The translations under genes were made by a program, and so were the position numbers. The notes beneath the pieces were generated by a model. The model saw only the letters and a list, made by a program, of their open reading frames with translations, ran no database searches and had not been told where the DNA came from. This document shows, in pieces, positions 16,413-61,750 of a stretch of 64,000 bases of DNA. Within the stretch, counting starts at the first letter, position 1; each line of letters starts with the position of its first letter. This DNA is from Chloroflexota bacterium (lineage in GTDB: Bacteria; Chloroflexota; Anaerolineae; JAAEKA01): the NCBI GenBank assembly GCA_029558955.1, contig JAKQCW010000129.1, positions 1 through 64,000 on the forward strand, read 5' to 3'.

Positions 16413-17467
16413 GTCAGTGATTGCAGGGCTGCATGGACTTGATCCAGCGACGTGGCCGTCTTGACAACCTGCTGCACAGCGCGCAGCACACTGAGATCGC
16501 TGATTTTATAGATGCCCGGCAGCAAAAGGGTTCCCTCGACGCCGAATTTGAGTTCCAGGGCAAACTCGATGTTGGCCAGAAGGCCCTCGCGTCGCCCTTG
16601 CTCCAGGCCCTGCTGCATGCCTTGCTGCATGCCCTGCTGCATACCCTGCTGCATGCCCTGCTGTAGGCCCTGCTGTAGGCCCTGCTGCATGCCCTGCTTC
16701 AATCCTTGTTCGACCCATTGTTCTGCAAGGGTAGCCATAAGTTCGCCTCCTTCAGGAAAGGCCTGATCCACGGCCTCCCGCAAGTCCTGGGGTGTGATGC
16801 GCCTGGCGCTGACTGACACGTAGCGCAATAGCGTCTGCAGGTATTCCAGGCCGGTTTGCTGGCGGGACAGGTCGCCGAGCAACGACAACGCGTCAGCCAG
16901 GCGCGGGCCGAAGTCGTTGTGCAAGATGTGCTTGAACACCTGCAAGGTGACACGCAGTACGACCTCGCCGCGGATCTCAGCGTCATCCATGCCGGTGAGA
17001 TCGCATAGCGAGTACTCGAACTCCGGCACGTAGCGGAGAAACGCGTCAGGCGCCTGCACCAACCAACGAAAGCCCGGCTTGATCTGCCAGTCGAACTCGC
17101 CGTGATAGACCACCACCGGCACGATGGCAACCAATCGGTCATACTGGCGCAGTGAATGCTCCCAAACGCGCGTCAGATAGCGCAGAAGCTGAAAGGCCAC
17201 CAGCCGGTCGGCGTAGCTCTTGTGCTCGAACAGCAGGTAGACCAGCCCATCGTCGCCGTTGTGCAGCTTGAGGGTGAAGAGCAGGTCTGTGTGATGGGCC
17301 TGCAAGGCCGTGTCAATGAAGGACTCCGTGCTCAGCTCCAGCGATGCCAGATCCATGTGCTCGACCACATCGGCCGGCAGATAGTTCTGGACGAAGTCGC
17401 GCGCCATCGCCGGGTTCGACATCACCTGCTTGAAAAAGCGGTCGTGTGGGTTGACTACAGATTCCAT
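16409..17467 (-). CDS. Rpn-family putative recombination-promoting nuclease
   Basis: A 352-residue protein. The opening NPHDRFFKQVMSNPAMARDFVQNYLP and the LYLLFEHKSYADRLVAFQLLRYL segment (the PD-(D/E)XK core, with the ExK of EHKS) match the Rpn/YhgA family once called putative transposases. Near residues 252-297 runs a Gln-Gly-rich tandem (EQGLKQGMQQGLQQG and so on) with about ten repeats, a feature common in this family and encoded by a near-perfect 12-bp DNA repeat. I choose ATG 17467: a TACAAT ends seven bases before it and the family N-terminus begins here. Overlaps the GT2 gene by four bases. Its function here is unknown; it may be a lone selfish or defence nuclease. Confidence 0.85.
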   Translation of the reverse strand: MESVVNPHDRFFKQVMSNPAMARDFVQNYLPADVVEHMDLASLELSTESFIDTALQAHHTDLLFTLKLHNGDDGLVYLLFEHKSYADRLVAFQLLRYLTRVWEHSLRQYDRLVAIVPVVVYHGEFDWQIKPGFRWLVQAPDAFLRYVPEFEYSLCDLTGMDDAEIRGEVVLRVTLQVFKHILHNDFGPRLADALSLLGDLSRQQTGLEYLQTLLRYVSVSARRITPQDLREAVDQAFPEGGELMATLAEQWVEQGLKQGMQQGLQQGLQQGMQQGMQQGMQQGMQQGLEQGRREGLLANIEFALELKFGVEGTLLLPGIYKISDLSVLRAVQQVVKTATSLDQVHAALQSLT

Positions 17468-20454: not shown

Positions 20455-22418
20455 GCGAGCCGCGCCGGCCGTTGTTGGCCCGCGTCGATCTGTGGTGGGC
20501 GCTGGCGGCGGGCCTGTTGGCCGGCGTCAGCTACTGGCAGATGGCTGCGCCCGGCCTGTTGGCCGGCGACAGCGGCGAGCTGCAGTTTGCCGCCTGGCTG
20601 GCTGGCCTCTCCCATCCCACCGGCTATCCGCTCTATCTGATGCTGGGCTGGCTGTGGTCGCATGGACTGGACGCGCTGGGGCTGGCCGGCCCGGCGCGGG
20701 CCATGACGCTGCTGTCAGCGCTCTTCGGTGCGCTGGCGGTGGGGCTGACCTACCTGTTGACTTTGGCATTGATCGGGCAGAGTCAGGCGGACAACCGCAC
20801 TGCCCGCCTAACTGAGCGCATCGCGGCTCTGGTCGCCGCCCTGACCTTCGCCTGGACGCCCACGCTGTGGAGCCAGGCGGTGATCACCGAGGTCTACACG
20901 CTGCACGCCGCGCTGGCGGCGGCGCTGCTGTGGCTGGCGCTGTTGTGGCGTCAGGACGTCCGATTTCTTCCGGGAAAGCGGACATCTTCCCTGCTGGCCG
21001 TGCTGGCGCTGCTCTTCGGCCTGGGCCTGGCCCATCACCGCGCCACGTTGCTGCTCCTGCCGGCGCTGCTGGTCTTCCTGGCCTGGCAGGCGCCGGCCGG
21101 CTATTGGCGTGGGCGGCAGATCGCGCTGTTGGCCCTGTTGGCCTTGGCGCCGCTGCTGCTCTACCTCTACGTGCCGCTGCGAGCGCCGGCCAGCCCCTAC
21201 CTGAGCATCGAGCTGTGGCCCGGTCAGCCGACCGCACTGTTGGATCGTTCCCCATCCGGCCTGCTCAGCTATCTGCTGGGCCAGAGCTTTGCCGGCGAGA
21301 TCCAGGGGCCAGTTCAGGCCCTGGCCGCTGCACCCGGTCTGCTGGCGCGCTTTGCTGCCGAGTTGACGCCGCTGGGCCTGGCGCTGGCCCTGCTGGGTCT
21401 GGCCGTGTTGGCCCTGCGCCGCCAGTGGCCGTTGCTCTGGCTGACCGGCGCCAGCTTCGTCCTGCTCACCGGCTTCAACCTGTTCTACACCATCGGCGAC
21501 ATCGCGGTTTTCTACATCCCCTCCTACCTGCTCGCCTGCGTCTGGATCGGCGTGGCCGTGGCCTGGGCGGCGGAGGCCGCGGGGCGTCTGGCCAGCCGGC
21601 GCTGGGCTGGTCGCGGCCAGGGCGTCGCCAGCGCCGCGGCGCTGCTGCTGGCCGCGCTGCCGATTACCCTCTTCTGGAGCCAGGCCGCGCAGCAGAATCG
21701 CAGCCTGGACAGCGCGGCCGAGGAGGGCTGGCGGGCGCTGCTGGCTGCCGACCCGGCCCGCGCTGCCGTGCTGGTCAGCAATGACCGCGATGAGCTGATG
21801 CCGCTGTGGTATTTGCAGCAGGTGGAGGGGGTGCGGCCTGACCTGGCCGGCGTATTCCCGCTGCTGCTGGCCCAGCCGGGCTGGCTCGACGTGGGCCAGG
21901 CGGTGGAGAGCGCGCTTTCCACCGGCCGGCCGGTCTATCTGATCAAGCCGATGCCCGGTCTGGAGCTCAAGGCTGAGCTGGGCCAGCCCGATGCGTCGGG
22001 TCTGACGCCGGTGCTCGGCCCGGCCATCGTTGGCCCCCCCACCTTCGCTGCGGAGGCAGTCATCAGCGACGCCGTGCGTCTGCTGGGCTTCGACGTGCAG
22101 CCGGCCGGCGACGCCATGCAGATCGACCTGCACTGGCAGCCGCTGCGCCCGTTGAGCGCGGACTACACCACCTTCGTCCAACTGTTGACGCCCGATGGCG
22201 TCAAGATCGCGCAGAGCGACCAGCAAGCTGGCGGCGTCTACTATCCCACCAGCCTCTGGCAGCCTGGCGAAACCCTGCGCGATCGGCACACGCTCACCCT
22301 GCCCATCGACGCGCCAGCCGGCCCCTATCAACTGTTAGTCGGAATGTACCAACTGGTCAACGGCGAGCTCATTCCCCTCGGCGCCGCCACCCTCGCCCTC
22401 CCCCAACTCCCCAACTAA
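20451..22418 (+). CDS. DUF2723-family membrane glycosyltransferase
   Basis: A 655-residue protein beginning at GTG 20451, which overlaps the preceding stop. The N-terminal part, PGLLAGDSGELQFAAWLAGL followed by SHPTGYPLYLMLGWLW, is the hallmark of DUF2723, a GT-C family that includes O-mannosyltransferase-like proteins. About ten membrane segments follow up to residue 415, then about 200 residues of outer domain. Together with the 17611 gene it forms a two-gene operon, probably for extracellular polysaccharide or protein glycosylation. A heptamer array follows its stop codon. Confidence 0.82.
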   Translation: MSEPRRPLLARVDLWWALAAGLLAGVSYWQMAAPGLLAGDSGELQFAAWLAGLSHPTGYPLYLMLGWLWSHGLDALGLAGPARAMTLLSALFGALAVGLTYLLTLALIGQSQADNRTARLTERIAALVAALTFAWTPTLWSQAVITEVYTLHAALAAALLWLALLWRQDVRFLPGKRTSSLLAVLALLFGLGLAHHRATLLLLPALLVFLAWQAPAGYWRGRQIALLALLALAPLLLYLYVPLRAPASPYLSIELWPGQPTALLDRSPSGLLSYLLGQSFAGEIQGPVQALAAAPGLLARFAAELTPLGLALALLGLAVLALRRQWPLLWLTGASFVLLTGFNLFYTIGDIAVFYIPSYLLACVWIGVAVAWAAEAAGRLASRRWAGRGQGVASAAALLLAALPITLFWSQAAQQNRSLDSAAEEGWRALLAADPARAAVLVSNDRDELMPLWYLQQVEGVRPDLAGVFPLLLAQPGWLDVGQAVESALSTGRPVYLIKPMPGLELKAELGQPDASGLTPVLGPAIVGPPTFAAEAVISDAVRLLGFDVQPAGDAMQIDLHWQPLRPLSADYTTFVQLLTPDGVKIAQSDQQAGGVYYPTSLWQPGETLRDRHTLTLPIDAPAGPYQLLVGMYQLVNGELIPLGAATLALPQLPN

Positions 22419-22495
22419 CCATTCCCCAACTCCCCATTCCCAATTAACCATTGACCATTGACCATTCCCCATTAACCATTCCTCATTCCCCATCG
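22419..22495. repeat. Heptamer array ATTGACC / ATTCCCC
   Basis: Heptamers such as ATTGACC, ATTAACC and ATTCCCC run between the glycosyltransferase stop and the moeA start. They leave moeA without a visible purine-rich ribosome-binding site. Confidence 0.75.
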
Positions 22496-22506
22496 AACCT
22501 CCTCCC

Positions 22507-24153
22507 ATGTCCGAACTTTTCGCCGTCCACACCCCCTCCGAAGCCTGGCGCACCTTCCGCCTGGCCTTCCAGCCCCGTCCGCGTAGCCAGCGCATAGCCG
22601 TGATCGACGCGCTGGGCCGCGTGCTGGCCGCTGACCTGAGCGCGCCGCACGACCTGCCCAGCTTTCCCCGCTCCACCGTGGATGGCTACGCGGTGGCCGC
22701 GCAGGACACCCACGGCGCCAGCGACAGCCTGCCAGCCTATCTGGAGGTAGTCGGCGAGGCGCTCATGGGCCAGACGGCCGATGTTCCGCTGGACGAAGGC
22801 CAGTGCGCCATCGTTCACACCGGCGGCATGATCCCGTCCGACGCCGACGCGGTGGTGATGGTCGAACACACCCAGCGGGTGCGGGACGCGCAAGGTCAGC
22901 CGGGCAGCTCAGCCGCCGATTTCACCCCCTACACCATCGAGGTTTACCGCCCCGTGGCCGCCGGCCAGAACGTGATCCAGGTCGGCGAAGATGTGCGGCA
23001 GGGGGAGGCTGTGCTGCCGGCCGGCCACGTCATCCGGCCCCAGGACATCGGCGGTCTGCTGGCGCTGGGCATCGTCGAGATAGATGTGGCGGCGCGGCCG
23101 GTGGCGGCGATCCTCTCCCAGGGGGATGAGGTGGTCGCGCCTGATCAGGAGCCGGGGCCGGGCCAGGTGCGTGACATCAATTCGCAGACGCTGGCCGCGC
23201 TGGCCCGCCAGGCGGGGGCCGAGGCCATCACCTTTCCCATCGTCCCCGATCAACTGGAGGCGTTGCAGGCGGCCGCGGCCCAGGCGCTGGCCCAGGCCGA
23301 TCTGCTGGTGATGTCGGCCGGCAGCTCGGTCAGCGTGCGCGATATGACAGCCCAGGTGATCGACGGGTTGGGTCGACCAGGGATTCTGGTGCATGGCGTC
23401 AGCGTCAAGCCGGGCAAGCCGACCATTCTGGCCGTCTGCGACGGCAAGCCGGTCTTCGGCCTGCCGGGCAACCCGGTCAGCGCGATGGTGATCTTCGACC
23501 TGTTTGTGACCCCGGTCATTCGCAGCATGTTGGGTGCAGACGAGGTGCGCAAGACCCGCGTGCCGGCTCGTCTGGCCCGCAACATCGCCAGCGCCACCGG
23601 CCGGGAGGACATCGTCCAGGTGCGGCTGGAGATTCGCTCAAGCCAACCTCGGACGGGCACGGTCGGAGACCGGCCCGAGCAAGGGATTGAGTCCGCCGCC
23701 CCACTCCGCTCAGGCCGGTCTCTGACCGAGCCTGGCGCGCCGCCTCGGACGGGCACGGTCGGAGACCGGCCCGAGCAAGGGATTGAGTCCGCCGCCCCAC
23801 CCCGCTCAGGCCGGTCTCTGACCGAGCCTGGCGTGCCGCCTCGGACGGGCACGGTCGGAGACCGGCCCGAGCAAGGGATTGAGTCCGCCGCCCCACCCCG
23901 CTCAGGCCGGTCTCTGACCGAGCCTGCCGCGCCGCCTCGGACGGGCACGGTCGGAGACCGGCCCGAGCAAGGGGATGAATCCGTTGGTCGAGTAGGCGCT
24001 GCGCCGTATCGAGACCAAGAGCTGTGGGCCGTGCCCGTCCTGGGCAAAAGCAACCTGATCTACACCCTCATCCGCGCCGAAGGCTTCGTGCGCGTGCCGC
24101 TGGACAGCAACGGCATCGCGCAGGGCGAATGGGTGATGGTAGAGCTGTACTGA
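22507..24153 (+). CDS. moeA: Molybdopterin molybdotransferase MoeA with repeat insertion
   Basis: A 548-residue MoeA, which inserts molybdate into adenylylated molybdopterin. The N-half has LPSFPRSTVDGYAVAAQDT and the RPVAAILSQGDEV hinge; the central MPT-binding domain has VMSAGSSVSVRDMT and KPGKPTILA ... GLPGNPVSAMV; the C-terminal domain resumes as WAVPVLGKSNLIYTL at residue 507. Typical MoeA is about 400-420 residues. Residues about 380-505 are an insertion encoded by 3.4 copies of a 96-bp repeat followed by a second hairpin repeat, all in frame, in a loop of the C-terminal domain. Removing it gives an ordinary MoeA. Whether the insert is translated without harm is unknown. A second moeA-like gene follows. 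Confidence 0.9.
   Translation: MSELFAVHTPSEAWRTFRLAFQPRPRSQRIAVIDALGRVLAADLSAPHDLPSFPRSTVDGYAVAAQDTHGASDSLPAYLEVVGEALMGQTADVPLDEGQCAIVHTGGMIPSDADAVVMVEHTQRVRDAQGQPGSSAADFTPYTIEVYRPVAAGQNVIQVGEDVRQGEAVLPAGHVIRPQDIGGLLALGIVEIDVAARPVAAILSQGDEVVAPDQEPGPGQVRDINSQTLAALARQAGAEAITFPIVPDQLEALQAAAAQALAQADLLVMSAGSSVSVRDMTAQVIDGLGRPGILVHGVSVKPGKPTILAVCDGKPVFGLPGNPVSAMVIFDLFVTPVIRSMLGADEVRKTRVPARLARNIASATGREDIVQVRLEIRSSQPRTGTVGDRPEQGIESAAPLRSGRSLTEPGAPPRTGTVGDRPEQGIESAAPPRSGRSLTEPGVPPRTGTVGDRPEQGIESAAPPRSGRSLTEPAAPPRTGTVGDRPEQGDESVGRVGAAPYRDQELWAVPVLGKSNLIYTLIRAEGFVRVPLDSNGIAQGEWVMVELY
23647..23977. repeat. 96-bp tandem hairpin repeat in moeA
   Basis: Unit starts at 23647, 23743, 23839 and 23935 are spaced exactly 96 bp (32 codons); the fourth copy is partial. 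Each unit contains CGGTCGGAGACCGGCC and, inverted, GGCCGGTCTCTGACCG, so a unit can fold back on itself. The same core is in the array at 26268. Confidence 0.95.
23984..24018. repeat. GGTCGAGTAGGC...ATCGAGACC hairpin, copy 1
   Basis: TTGGTC and GACCAA pair at the ends; inside are GAGTAGGCGC and GCGCCGTATCGA. It belongs to the family also found at 36952 and 61681-61750 and sits in frame at the end of the moeA insertion. Confidence 0.75.
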
Positions 24154-24263: not shown

Positions 24264-26264
24264 ATGCACGACAAAACCCCCTATCTTCACGACATCGGCC
24301 TGGATGAGGCTGTGCGCGCCTGGCGCGAGGCGCTGGTGCAGAGCGACGCGCTGGGGACATTGGCCAGCCAGTCGCTGCCGGTGGCCGAATGCCTGGGTCG
24401 GGTGACGGCTGCGCCGGTCTGGGCGCGCATCTCGTCGCCCCACTACCACGCCTCGGCCATGGATGGCTACGCGGTGGCCGCGGAGGACACGGCCGGCGCC
24501 ACAGAGACGCGGCCCAAGCGGCTGGTCATCGGCGAGCAGGCCTGGTACGTGGACACCGGCGACCCCATGCCGGCCCGCGCCAATGCGGTGATCATGGTGG
24601 AGGAGGTGCAGGTCAGCGGAGCTGAGATCGAGATTATCGCCTCTGTCCCTCCCTGGCGTCACGTCCGGCCCATGGGCGAGGATATCGTGGCCACGCAGTT
24701 GGTGTTGCCATCGAATCACCGGCTGCGCCCCGCCGATCTGGGCGCGGCCGTGGGCTGTGGCCACACCCGCCTGGCCGTGCGCCGCCAGCCCCGCGTGGCC
24801 ATCATTCCCACCGGCACGGAGCTGGTGCGGCTGGATGCCCTGAGCGGCCCCGAGGCGTTGAAGCCGGGCGACATCGTGGAGTACAACTCCATCGTGCTGG
24901 GCGCGCTGGCCGAGGAGTGGGGCTGTGTCGTCAGCCGGCTGGACCCGCTGCCCGACGACTTCGAACTGATCCGCGCCGCAGCCGCCGTGGCGCTGGAAGA
25001 TCACGACCTGGTGGTGATCAACGCCGGCTCATCGGCTGGCTCGGAGGATTTCACCGCCCGCGTCATCGCCAGCCTGGGCCGCGTGGTGGTGCATGGCATC
25101 GCCATCCGGCCGGGGCACCCGGTGGTGCTGGGGGTGGCCCATGACCGCCCGCGCGCCTCCGATCTCGCGCGTCAGTCCAGCGGCCAGGGCAAGCCCATCA
25201 TCGGCATCCCCGGCTATCCCGCCTCCGCCGCCATGACCTTCGATCTGCTGGCCAAGCCGGTGATCTATGCCATGCAGGGCCTTTTGCCGCCGGAACGCCC
25301 GCAGGTCGTCGCCCGGCTGACCCAGAAGGTCTATTCCGGCATGGGCGAAGACGAGTTTCTGCGCGTGACTCTGGGGCAGGTGGGCGAGCAGATGGTGGCC
25401 ACCCCGCTGCAGCGCGGGGCTGGGGTGATCATGTCCCTGGTGCGGGCTGACGGCATCGTGCGCCTGCCCCGCTTCAGCGAGGGGGAACACGCCGGCGCCG
25501 CGGTGACGGTGGAGCTGCTGCGGCCGCCGGAGGCGGTGCGCAACACCATCGTCAGCATCGGCAGCCACGACATGACGCTGGACCTGCTGGCCGACCAACT
25601 GCGCCGCCTGCACCCGGAGCTCAGCCTGGCCTCCTCCAATGTCGGCAGCTACGGCGGCCTGCTGGCCTTGCAGCGCGGCGAGGCGCACCTGGCCGGCTCG
25701 CATCTGCTGGACGAGGAGACGGGCGAGTACAACATCAGGACGATCCATGAGCTGGGGCTGAGCCGGGCCAGCGGCCATGCCGACGGCGTGGTGCTGCTGC
25801 GCTTCCTCGGCCGCGTGCAGGGGCTGCTGGTTCCAGCCGGCAATCCTCAGGGGATCGCCGACCTGCAAGACCTGGTGCGGCCTGAGATCAGCTTCATCAA
25901 CCGTCAGCGCGGCGCGGGTACGCGGGTGCTGCTGGATTTCGAGCTGGCCAAACGGGGCATCAAGCGCCGTCAGGTGCGGGGCTACGAGCGGCAGGAATAC
26001 ACCCATCTGGCCGTGGCCGCGGCCGTGGCATCGGGCACAGCCAGCTGTGGGCTGGGCATTCTGGCCGCGGCCCGCGCCCTGCACCTGGACTTCGTGCCGC
26101 TGTTCAACGAGCAGTACGATCTGGTCATCCCGCGGCGTTTCTACCACAGCGAGCTGTTGGCCCCGCTGCTGGCCGTGGTGCGTTCAGTGGAGTTCGCCGC
26201 CACGGTCGATGCCCTGGGCGGCTACGACACCGCCGGCATCGGCCAGGTAATCGCTGAACTATAG
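24264..26264 (+). CDS. MoeA fused to a periplasmic-binding-like molybdate-binding domain
   Basis: A 666-residue fusion. Residues 1-420 are MoeA-like: SPHYHASAMDGYAVAAEDT, PRVAIIPTGTELV, VVINAGSSAGSEDFTARV and IGIPGYPASAAMTFDLL. From about residue 424 (NTIVSIGSHDMTLDLLADQL) to the end is a PBP-like domain of the type seen in molybdate-binding proteins (SSNVGSYGGLLALQRGEAHLAGSHLLD; FINRQRGAGTRVLLD; ASGTASCGLGILAAARAL). This arrangement is known in archaea and some bacteria. The start is ATG 24264. It lies 110 bases after moeA; two MoeA proteins may serve different steps or cofactors (Mo versus W), which is inference. Confidence 0.88.
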   Translation: MHDKTPYLHDIGLDEAVRAWREALVQSDALGTLASQSLPVAECLGRVTAAPVWARISSPHYHASAMDGYAVAAEDTAGATETRPKRLVIGEQAWYVDTGDPMPARANAVIMVEEVQVSGAEIEIIASVPPWRHVRPMGEDIVATQLVLPSNHRLRPADLGAAVGCGHTRLAVRRQPRVAIIPTGTELVRLDALSGPEALKPGDIVEYNSIVLGALAEEWGCVVSRLDPLPDDFELIRAAAAVALEDHDLVVINAGSSAGSEDFTARVIASLGRVVVHGIAIRPGHPVVLGVAHDRPRASDLARQSSGQGKPIIGIPGYPASAAMTFDLLAKPVIYAMQGLLPPERPQVVARLTQKVYSGMGEDEFLRVTLGQVGEQMVATPLQRGAGVIMSLVRADGIVRLPRFSEGEHAGAAVTVELLRPPEAVRNTIVSIGSHDMTLDLLADQLRRLHPELSLASSNVGSYGGLLALQRGEAHLAGSHLLDEETGEYNIRTIHELGLSRASGHADGVVLLRFLGRVQGLLVPAGNPQGIADLQDLVRPEISFINRQRGAGTRVLLDFELAKRGIKRRQVRGYERQEYTHLAVAAAVASGTASCGLGILAAARALHLDFVPLFNEQYDLVIPRRFYHSELLAPLLAVVRSVEFAATVDALGGYDTAGIGQVIAEL

Positions 26265-26267
26265 ATT

Positions 26268-26475
26268 TTCCCGCTCGGGCCGGTCTCCGACCGAGGCCCT
26301 CGTCCTGCTTGGGCCGGTCTCCGACCGAGGCCCTCTTCCGCTCGGGCCGGTCTCCGACCGAGGCCCACTCCCGCTCGGGCCGGTCTCCGACCGTGCCCCC
26401 TTATCCTGCTTGGGCCGGTCTCCGACCGTGCCCCCTCATCCTGCTTGGGCCGGTCTCCGACCGTGCCCATCCGAG
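26268..26475. repeat. Six-unit hairpin array related to the moeA repeat
   Basis: Six copies of GGGCCGGTCTCCGACCG start at 26277, 26311, 26344, 26377, 26412 and 26447, spaced 33-35 bp. Each core is a hairpin (GGTC-TCC-GACC), extended by GGGCC/GGCCC in the first three. Spacers are near-identical, so this is not a CRISPR. It fills the gap between the MoeA fusion and the gamma-glutamyltransferase gene. Confidence 0.95.
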
Positions 26476-49887: not shown

Positions 49888-50393
49888 GTAGTGCGTAATG
49901 CGTGATGCGTAATGCGTAATGCGTGATGCGTAATGCGTAATGCGTGTGCGTGATGCGTGATGCGTGTGCGTAATGCGTGATGCGTGTGCGTGATGCGTGT
50001 GCGTGATGCGTGTGCGTGATGCGTGATGCGAAATGCGTGATGCGAAATGCGTGATGCGAAATGCGTGATGCGTGATGCGCGTGCGTGGTGCGTGGTGCGT
50101 GGTGCCCGTGCGTAATGCGTAACCCATCACGCGCAACCCGCAACCCAGACACAACCCTCACCATTCCGGTTACGCATTACGCATCACGCATTACGCACCA
50201 CGCGCAACCCGCAACCCAGACACAACTCTCACCATTCCGGTTACGCATTACGCACCACGCGCAACCCGCAACCCAGACACAACTCTCACCATTCCGGTTA
50301 CGCATTACGCATTACGAGTGACGCACCGCGCCACCCAGAAACGCCTCACACACGCACACTCCAGGTTACGAGTTACGAGTTACGAGTTACGCT
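49888..50393. repeat. Heptamer repeat region with opposed halves
   Basis: From 49888 to about 50122 the sequence is TGCGTAA/TGCGTGA heptamers; from about 50123 to 50333 the complementary TTACGCA/ATCACGC type, including three copies of a unit beginning GCGCAACCCGCAACCCAGAC (50131, 50202, 50259; spacing 71 and 57). TTACGAG heptamers follow at 50364-50393. The opposite halves could pair over hundreds of bases. There is no gene in this 546-base gap. Confidence 0.95.
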
Positions 50394-61649: not shown

Positions 61650-61680
61650 CGCAAAAACTTCTCCCGGCAGCGCACCAACC

Positions 61681-61750
61681 GCTGGTTGAGTAGGCCGCCG
61701 TACCGAAACCAGCCGTTGGTTGAGTAGGCCGCCGTATCGAAACCAACGGC
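61681..61750. repeat. Dispersed hairpin, copies 3 and 4
   Basis: Copy 3 (61681-61713) has arms GCTGGTT and AACCAGC; copy 4 (61712-61750) GCCGTTGGTT and AACCAACGGC. Both enclose GAGTAGGCCGCCGTAYCGA. The arms differ from each other and from 36952 and 23984 but remain complementary. Confidence 0.92.

Follow-up and report, generated by a model that had tools for sequence, protein, structure and literature searches.

A short stop-free palindromic repeat lies in frame within moeA and other conserved genes of one Caldilineales genus

The molybdopterin molybdenumtransferase MoeA of a Chloroflexota genome is enlarged by an in-frame array of palindromic repeats, and the core of these repeats recurs across the genome, both between and within genes. 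We consider it probable (about 0.8) that the core is a short, stop-free palindromic element that spread through one genus of the Caldilineales, that its in-frame copies in genes are tolerated, and that it grows locally into tandem arrays. Most likely, the cell gains no function from the insert, a selfish or neutral repeat that it tolerates. The window analyzed is a 64-kb stretch (positions 1 to 64,000) of contig C335; the genome (G000) is 4.59 Mb in 350 contigs, and, among named relatives, Caldilineales MAGs stand closest. It was compared with three other members of the genus (G001, G002 and G003) and with two genomes of the same family but other genera (G004 and G005).

The moeA array and its host protein

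The moeA region of the window contains the following features.

22507–24153, + strand: moeA (molybdopterin molybdenumtransferase), 548 aa, host of the insert (Pfam and AlphaFold2 fold match)
23647–23742, + strand: copy 1 of the 96-bp repeat unit, 32 codons, PRTGTVGDRPEQGIESAAPLRSGRSLTEPGAP (repeat search, TRF)
23743–23838, + strand: copy 2 of the 96-bp unit, 98% (repeat search, BLAST)
23839–23934, + strand: copy 3 of the 96-bp unit, 98% (repeat search, BLAST)
23935–23983, + strand: partial copy 4 of the 96-bp unit, 49 nt, 94% (BLAST)
23657–23969, no single strand: seven 25-bp palindromic cores, consensus GCTCGGTCGGAGACCGGCCCGAGCA, orientation +-+-+-+ (core search)
23986–24016, + strand: one copy of a GTAG-containing hairpin repeat, unrelated to the 25-bp core, in frame, GGTCGAGTAGGCGCTGCGCCGTATCGAGACC
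24264–26264, + strand: moeA paralogue fused to a PBP-like domain, neighbor of moeA, without insert
26272–26466, − strand: six-copy intergenic array of the same core, 33–35-bp spacing, not frame-preserving

The three full copies and one partial copy of the 96-bp unit, which the original prediction had read from the letters alone, were recovered by TRF, repeat search and BLAST. According to TRF, the array (23647–23973) has a period of 96 bp and 98% matches with zero indels; its 3.4 copies may be under- or over-assembled, as contigs of this genome often break off in this repeat. The copies starting at 23647, 23743 and 23839 are 97–100% identical in the repeat search. Within each unit there is a core, CGGTCGGAGACCG, and a second core in inverted orientation, CGGTCTCTGACCG, which is one mismatch away from the perfect reverse complement of CGGTCGGAGACCG; the hairpin fold of one unit has a z-score of −3.1 against dinucleotide shuffles. 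BLAST of the genome found the complete unit, spacer included, only in moeA. The unrelated hairpin that was said to follow the array is present as well; it is 31 bp in length, with arms GGTCGAGTAGGC...GCCGTATCGAGACC. A tandem pair of a related GTAG-containing hairpin is located at 61674–61747 of the window.

The window as a whole holds 40 core matches (≤2 mismatches), compared to 12.5 ± 4.2 in shuffles. The intergenic array at 26272–26466 starts 7 bp past the end of the second moeA. Tandem repeats of other kinds are also present: heptad-type repeats (CCATTCC, TGCGTGA, ACGCATT...) at 22416–22493, just upstream of moeA, and at 49892–50391, and 18-bp and 12-bp repeats, both with periods that are multiples of three, at 204–366 and 16594–16698. 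An Rfam scan of the window matched zero families.

The frame of moeA is open across all 548 codons, repeat included, in agreement with the proposal that the 96-bp spacing preserves it. The protein contains MoeA_N (residues 12–188), MoCF_biosynth (201–339) and MoeA_C (489–547) Pfam domains; domains I–IV are all recognized, and the C-terminal domain IV is interrupted by the insert. Compared to its orthologues (408–413 aa), MoeA has 140 extra residues, 14 of them in a domain II loop and ∼126 at one turn of domain IV; the picture of an otherwise ordinary MoeA lengthened by about 126 residues was therefore borne out. At the insertion site, the G004 DNA reads CTG GAG GAG CGC CGC GGC GAG CTG TGG, and the window reads CTG GAG ATT CGC TCA AGC [insert] GAG CTG TGG. 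Judged by the ∼70 aligned relatives, in which it is about two residues long, the site is a tight β-turn. In the AlphaFold2 model, the MoeA core is confident (pLDDT >90) and matches Pyrococcus horikoshii MoeA (1uz5) with a TM-score of 0.90, normalized by target. Residues 383–501, between the strands 367–378 and 504–510, have a pLDDT of ∼30 and no secondary structure; the insert is predicted to form a disordered loop at the former β-turn.

The insert is absent from the MoeA proteins of G004, G005 and ∼70 other relatives outside the genus, which have the two-residue turn. Most orthologues therefore do not share the same insert with conservation at the protein level, a pattern that had been named in advance as counter-evidence. 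Within the genus, the same turn carries three different repeat arrays in G000, G001 and G003. In the G001 gene, a 30-bp unit (GSVGDRPEQR) is present four times, in an array of ∼120 bp; the G003 protein holds two copies of the second, GTAG-containing hairpin, and its contig starts inside the insert. The other repeats at the same turn in G001 and G003 support the moeA insert as such. In domain II, the G001 gene (L062) has a further in-frame repeat insert, and a second moeA of G003 (L061, 275–2452) has a third repeat family, in frame, at the corresponding turn; the families in these two paralogues are unrelated.

Spread and local growth of the core

No other repeat in the sampled DNA is as widespread as the core, which occupies 88 bins of 1.5 kb. 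Its consensus, GGGCTCGGTCGGAGACCGGCCCGAGC, is ∼25–30 bp in length; most arrays are intergenic, often in co-directional spacers. The pattern CGGTCNSNGACCG has 518 sites, compared to 116 for its control. The exact 15-mer CGGTCGGAGACCGGC occurs 456, 201, 25 and 318 times in G000, G001, G002 and G003, respectively, and its control is absent from all four. Outside the genus, the 15-mer was found once in G004 and not in G005; among 54 other genomes sampled from the class, 52 have none, G033 has one and G035 has 15. G035 belongs to another family (one example lies at C116 27906–28211), and nearer relatives have none. By these counts, the repeat is expanded in one genus of Caldilineales, Chloroflexota. 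A literature search returned no report of such a repeat for Caldilineales.

We aligned the first copies of 66 arrays. They share a ∼25-bp core with flanks that are unconserved except for a weak 5′ GGCGG; as the copies were selected on the core, only the absence of conserved flanks is informative. Among 178 pairs of neighboring cores, 169 are in the same orientation and 9 are inverted, and six of the nine inverted pairs are in moeA. The inverted pair described in the original prediction thus holds for each 96-bp unit, but not as a general layout; it is peculiar to moeA. The median spacer identity is 0.88 within arrays and 0.235 between arrays. Because spacers are alike only within an array, arrays probably grow locally after a small core has inserted; the dispersing unit would be the ∼25–30-bp core, and the 96-bp unit a product of local amplification. 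GatA illustrates the two steps of dispersal and subsequent tandem amplification, with no core in G004 and G005, one in G003 and four in G000. A CRISPR array was ruled out, as the spacers within an array are near-identical. We also compared the GatA, PKS and moeA sites for target-site duplications; at the ∼80% DNA identity of the relatives, exact ends could not be defined.

Further in-frame copies in the genome, which the original prediction had suggested looking for, are present in many conserved genes. In the opening sample of 444 kb, five of 19 core clusters were inside genes. Of the arrays in the larger G000 sample, 12 were genic and 51 intergenic, and a further 7 overlapped a gene in part; 7/39 arrays were genic in the G001 and G003 samples. 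Overall, about one fifth of the arrays are in frame inside conserved genes, a fraction that refers to sampled stretches of MAGs, partly picked for holding hits, and to gene calls from a home-made codon-usage model (88% coding). We calculated that genic insertions are retained at ∼3% of the intergenic rate (12:51 versus 0.88:0.12).

The host genes encode GatA, QueG, HemW, acetyl-CoA ligase, HypF, PheT, ProA, RecQ, a PKS and an FAD/2Fe-2S fusion of xanthine dehydrogenase type; identification scores are 600 bits for GatA, 753 for HypF, 569 for PheT, 583 for ProA and 619 for RecQ. Both gatA and pheT are usually essential. The G004 acetyl-CoA ligase and HemW genes have no core, and the PKS copy is also missing from G004. 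In QueG relatives, the linker is variable at the insert position, and the empty site is not clean. The fused FAD-binding/2Fe-2S gene (L167 12146–14059, contig C273 of G000) carries three different in-frame tandem arrays, TGLDTAQTPTRPTD, PPLGPVSDRARVAHAQ and SRYGADAYSTHDDSPG.

Reading frame, translation and alternative origins

Within genes, the spacing of same-orientation cores is a multiple of three in all 31 cases (24/24 in G000 and 7/7 in G001 and G003), compared to 66/159 in intergenic regions (54/125 and 12/34, respectively). Counted per array, the numbers are 14/14 and 24/57 (Fisher p = 4e-5); the result is partly circular, as no gene would be called unless its frame stayed open. The core has zero stops in any of its six frames, and five of the six are used in genes. 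The stop-free core family is genic in 16/88 bins, whereas five other abundant intergenic families, more prone to stops, are genic in 0/96 (p = 3e-6); as the other families whose frames were checked each have at least one stop-bearing frame and open frames too, stop content cannot be singled out as the cause by this comparison. The frame and stop-free patterns indicate that a selective filter suffices as an explanation, without targeting. Because the frame is preserved, we infer that the moeA insert is translated; TGTVGDRPEQGIESAAP, ARSETGQSYEAR and LGPVSDRARVAHAQP are candidate repeat-derived peptides.

We propose the following course of events. The core first lands at a new place, as its presence or absence between relatives shows. 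Together with a little local flanking DNA, it would then be amplified in tandem on site, a step to which the array-specific spacers point. Insertions that break genes would be lost, and those in surface turns or linkers that keep a multiple of three would survive, helped by a core that is stop-free in six frames. If translated, as is probable, the insert would be a floppy, sequence-neutral loop. In moeA, a core and an inverted core would have been co-amplified as the 96-bp unit in the domain IV β-turn, beside the second hairpin family.

Could the inserts instead be selected peptide loops, such as binding or oligomerization linkers, with the repeat kept for the protein it encodes? The same MoeA turn was hit in three congeners, repeats occur in the acetyl-CoA ligase loop of several, and the copies in the G001 moeA differ only synonymously (2/2), which may be a small hint of constraint. 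However, unrelated proteins use the same DNA in five different frames, the MoeA-turn peptides differ among congeners, and the peptide is predicted to be disordered by AlphaFold2. Moreover, the genic copies lack amino-acid conservation, with 7 synonymous and 14 non-synonymous changes among them, a silent fraction of 0.33 compared to 0.26–0.29 expected at random; the lack of an excess of silent changes gives no sign of selection on the repeat peptide, and we regard functional loops as quite improbable. Compatibility with the protein would not be needed if the arrays were left untranslated through ribosome skipping or splicing out. Ribosome bypassing reportedly occurs in phage T4 gene 60 and at the byp elements of Magnusiomyces mitochondria, and the arrays, as hairpin-forming genic inserts, share a trait with known bypassed elements. 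Yet skipped inserts need neither multiples of three nor freedom from stops, which is at odds with the 31/31 genic spacings, and the ten gene pairs flanking intergenic arrays that we tested are all distinct or complete genes, not split halves. Such skipping or splicing is therefore very unlikely. We give an equally low chance to the idea that short reads of an intergenic array were wrongly joined into moeA. Some arrays could be assembly products, and several contigs do end in the repeat; but the full 96-bp unit and spacer are found only in moeA, in-frame inserts are present at this turn in the independent assemblies of G001, whose array is short, and of G003, and the same pattern is seen across many separate genes in three genomes.

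It is also unlikely, although less so than these readings, that the RAYT transposases of the genome disperse the core as an ordinary REP, in a REP/RAYT or REPIN system. The core resembles REPs in its size, its hairpin and its frequent location in spacers between co-directional genes, and the genome has three RAYT-like genes, one of which (L163) is above the NCBIfam cut-off. However, the three genes have no core within ∼1.3 kb, and on each side of L163 lie inverted repeats of another family, GGAGTCGAGGCTTCA, so that the proximity test works for that family and fails for the core. The core also lacks the GTAG tag, and its neighbors are direct instead of inverted. The L163 arrays, GGAGTCGAGGCTTCA...CTCGACTCC, belong to L163 1185–1439 and 1995–2347 (contig C82 of G000); together with the RAYT gene, they make up a REPtron in Chloroflexota. 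The GGAGTCGAGGCTTCA family is the second most widespread in the sampled DNA (39 bins, none genic). Returning to the tolerated, locally amplified palindrome, we put forward tentatively, at somewhat less than even odds, that the CGGTC core belongs to a separate class of mobile palindromes that disperses free of RAYT and enters coding sequence in nearly any frame, since it is stop-free in all six. If so, a Chloroflexota lineage would join Rickettsiales as a natural example of core proteins colonized wholesale by in-frame repeats.

Significance and comparison with known palindromic repeats

In-frame genic palindromes have been discussed mostly for Rickettsia and, elsewhere, for GTAG/CGTC REPs; here, an unrelated repeat is involved, in a Chloroflexota genus. 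Among close relatives, empty sites are found alongside single-copy and amplified ones, which makes the question of junk versus raw protein material directly testable. The inserts also mark, as a natural map, the loops of core enzymes that tolerate insertion, and MAG gene calls of this group should be read with caution, as they contain repeat-derived peptides.

RPEs, which are also found in Wolbachia, are many-copy palindromes; they sit in frame within conserved genes that are unrelated to one another and are not destroyed by them (PMC10969869, PMC3767692, PMC3733652), and different families may occupy one locus in different species (PMC3767692). The likeness to RPEs drawn in the original prediction is apt as an analogy of behavior, a palindrome in frame within conserved ORFs and in a surface loop, but probably does not extend to membership; even the host gene pheT is common to both (PMC3767692 Fig. 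2). RPEs are 100–150 bp in length and belong to obligate intracellular alphaproteobacteria, whereas the core is ∼25–30 bp and comes from a Caldilineales MAG. Different from RPEs, the core expands in direct tandem arrays, and it lacks the CGTC end tag of Rickettsia conorii RPEs (PMC3733652).

GTAG/CGTC REPs are 20–40-bp palindromes that are mainly intergenic, with a minority in frame in named genes; intragenic examples are known from Opitutus terrae, Thauera and Xanthomonas recB. In their clusters, repeats are iterated with flanking DNA segments, the largest encoding 43–82 aa, and head-to-tail dimers are rare (all PMC3733652). Like them, the core is a short, high-copy and mainly intergenic palindrome. 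However, its consensus has neither GTAG nor CGTC (the second moeA hairpin does have GTAG), head-to-tail arrays predominate without RAYT association, and the moeA insert, at ∼126 aa including the second hairpin, is larger. As in REPIN/RAYT systems, hairpin repeats occur throughout the genome, and one RAYT has REP arrays of its own on either side, but that family is not the core; the replicating unit of a REPIN is two inverted REPs, and inverted pairs are rare for the core, moeA excepted. The best reading is that the element is a RAYT-unlinked palindrome that behaves as RPEs and intragenic REPs do and is probably a member of neither family.
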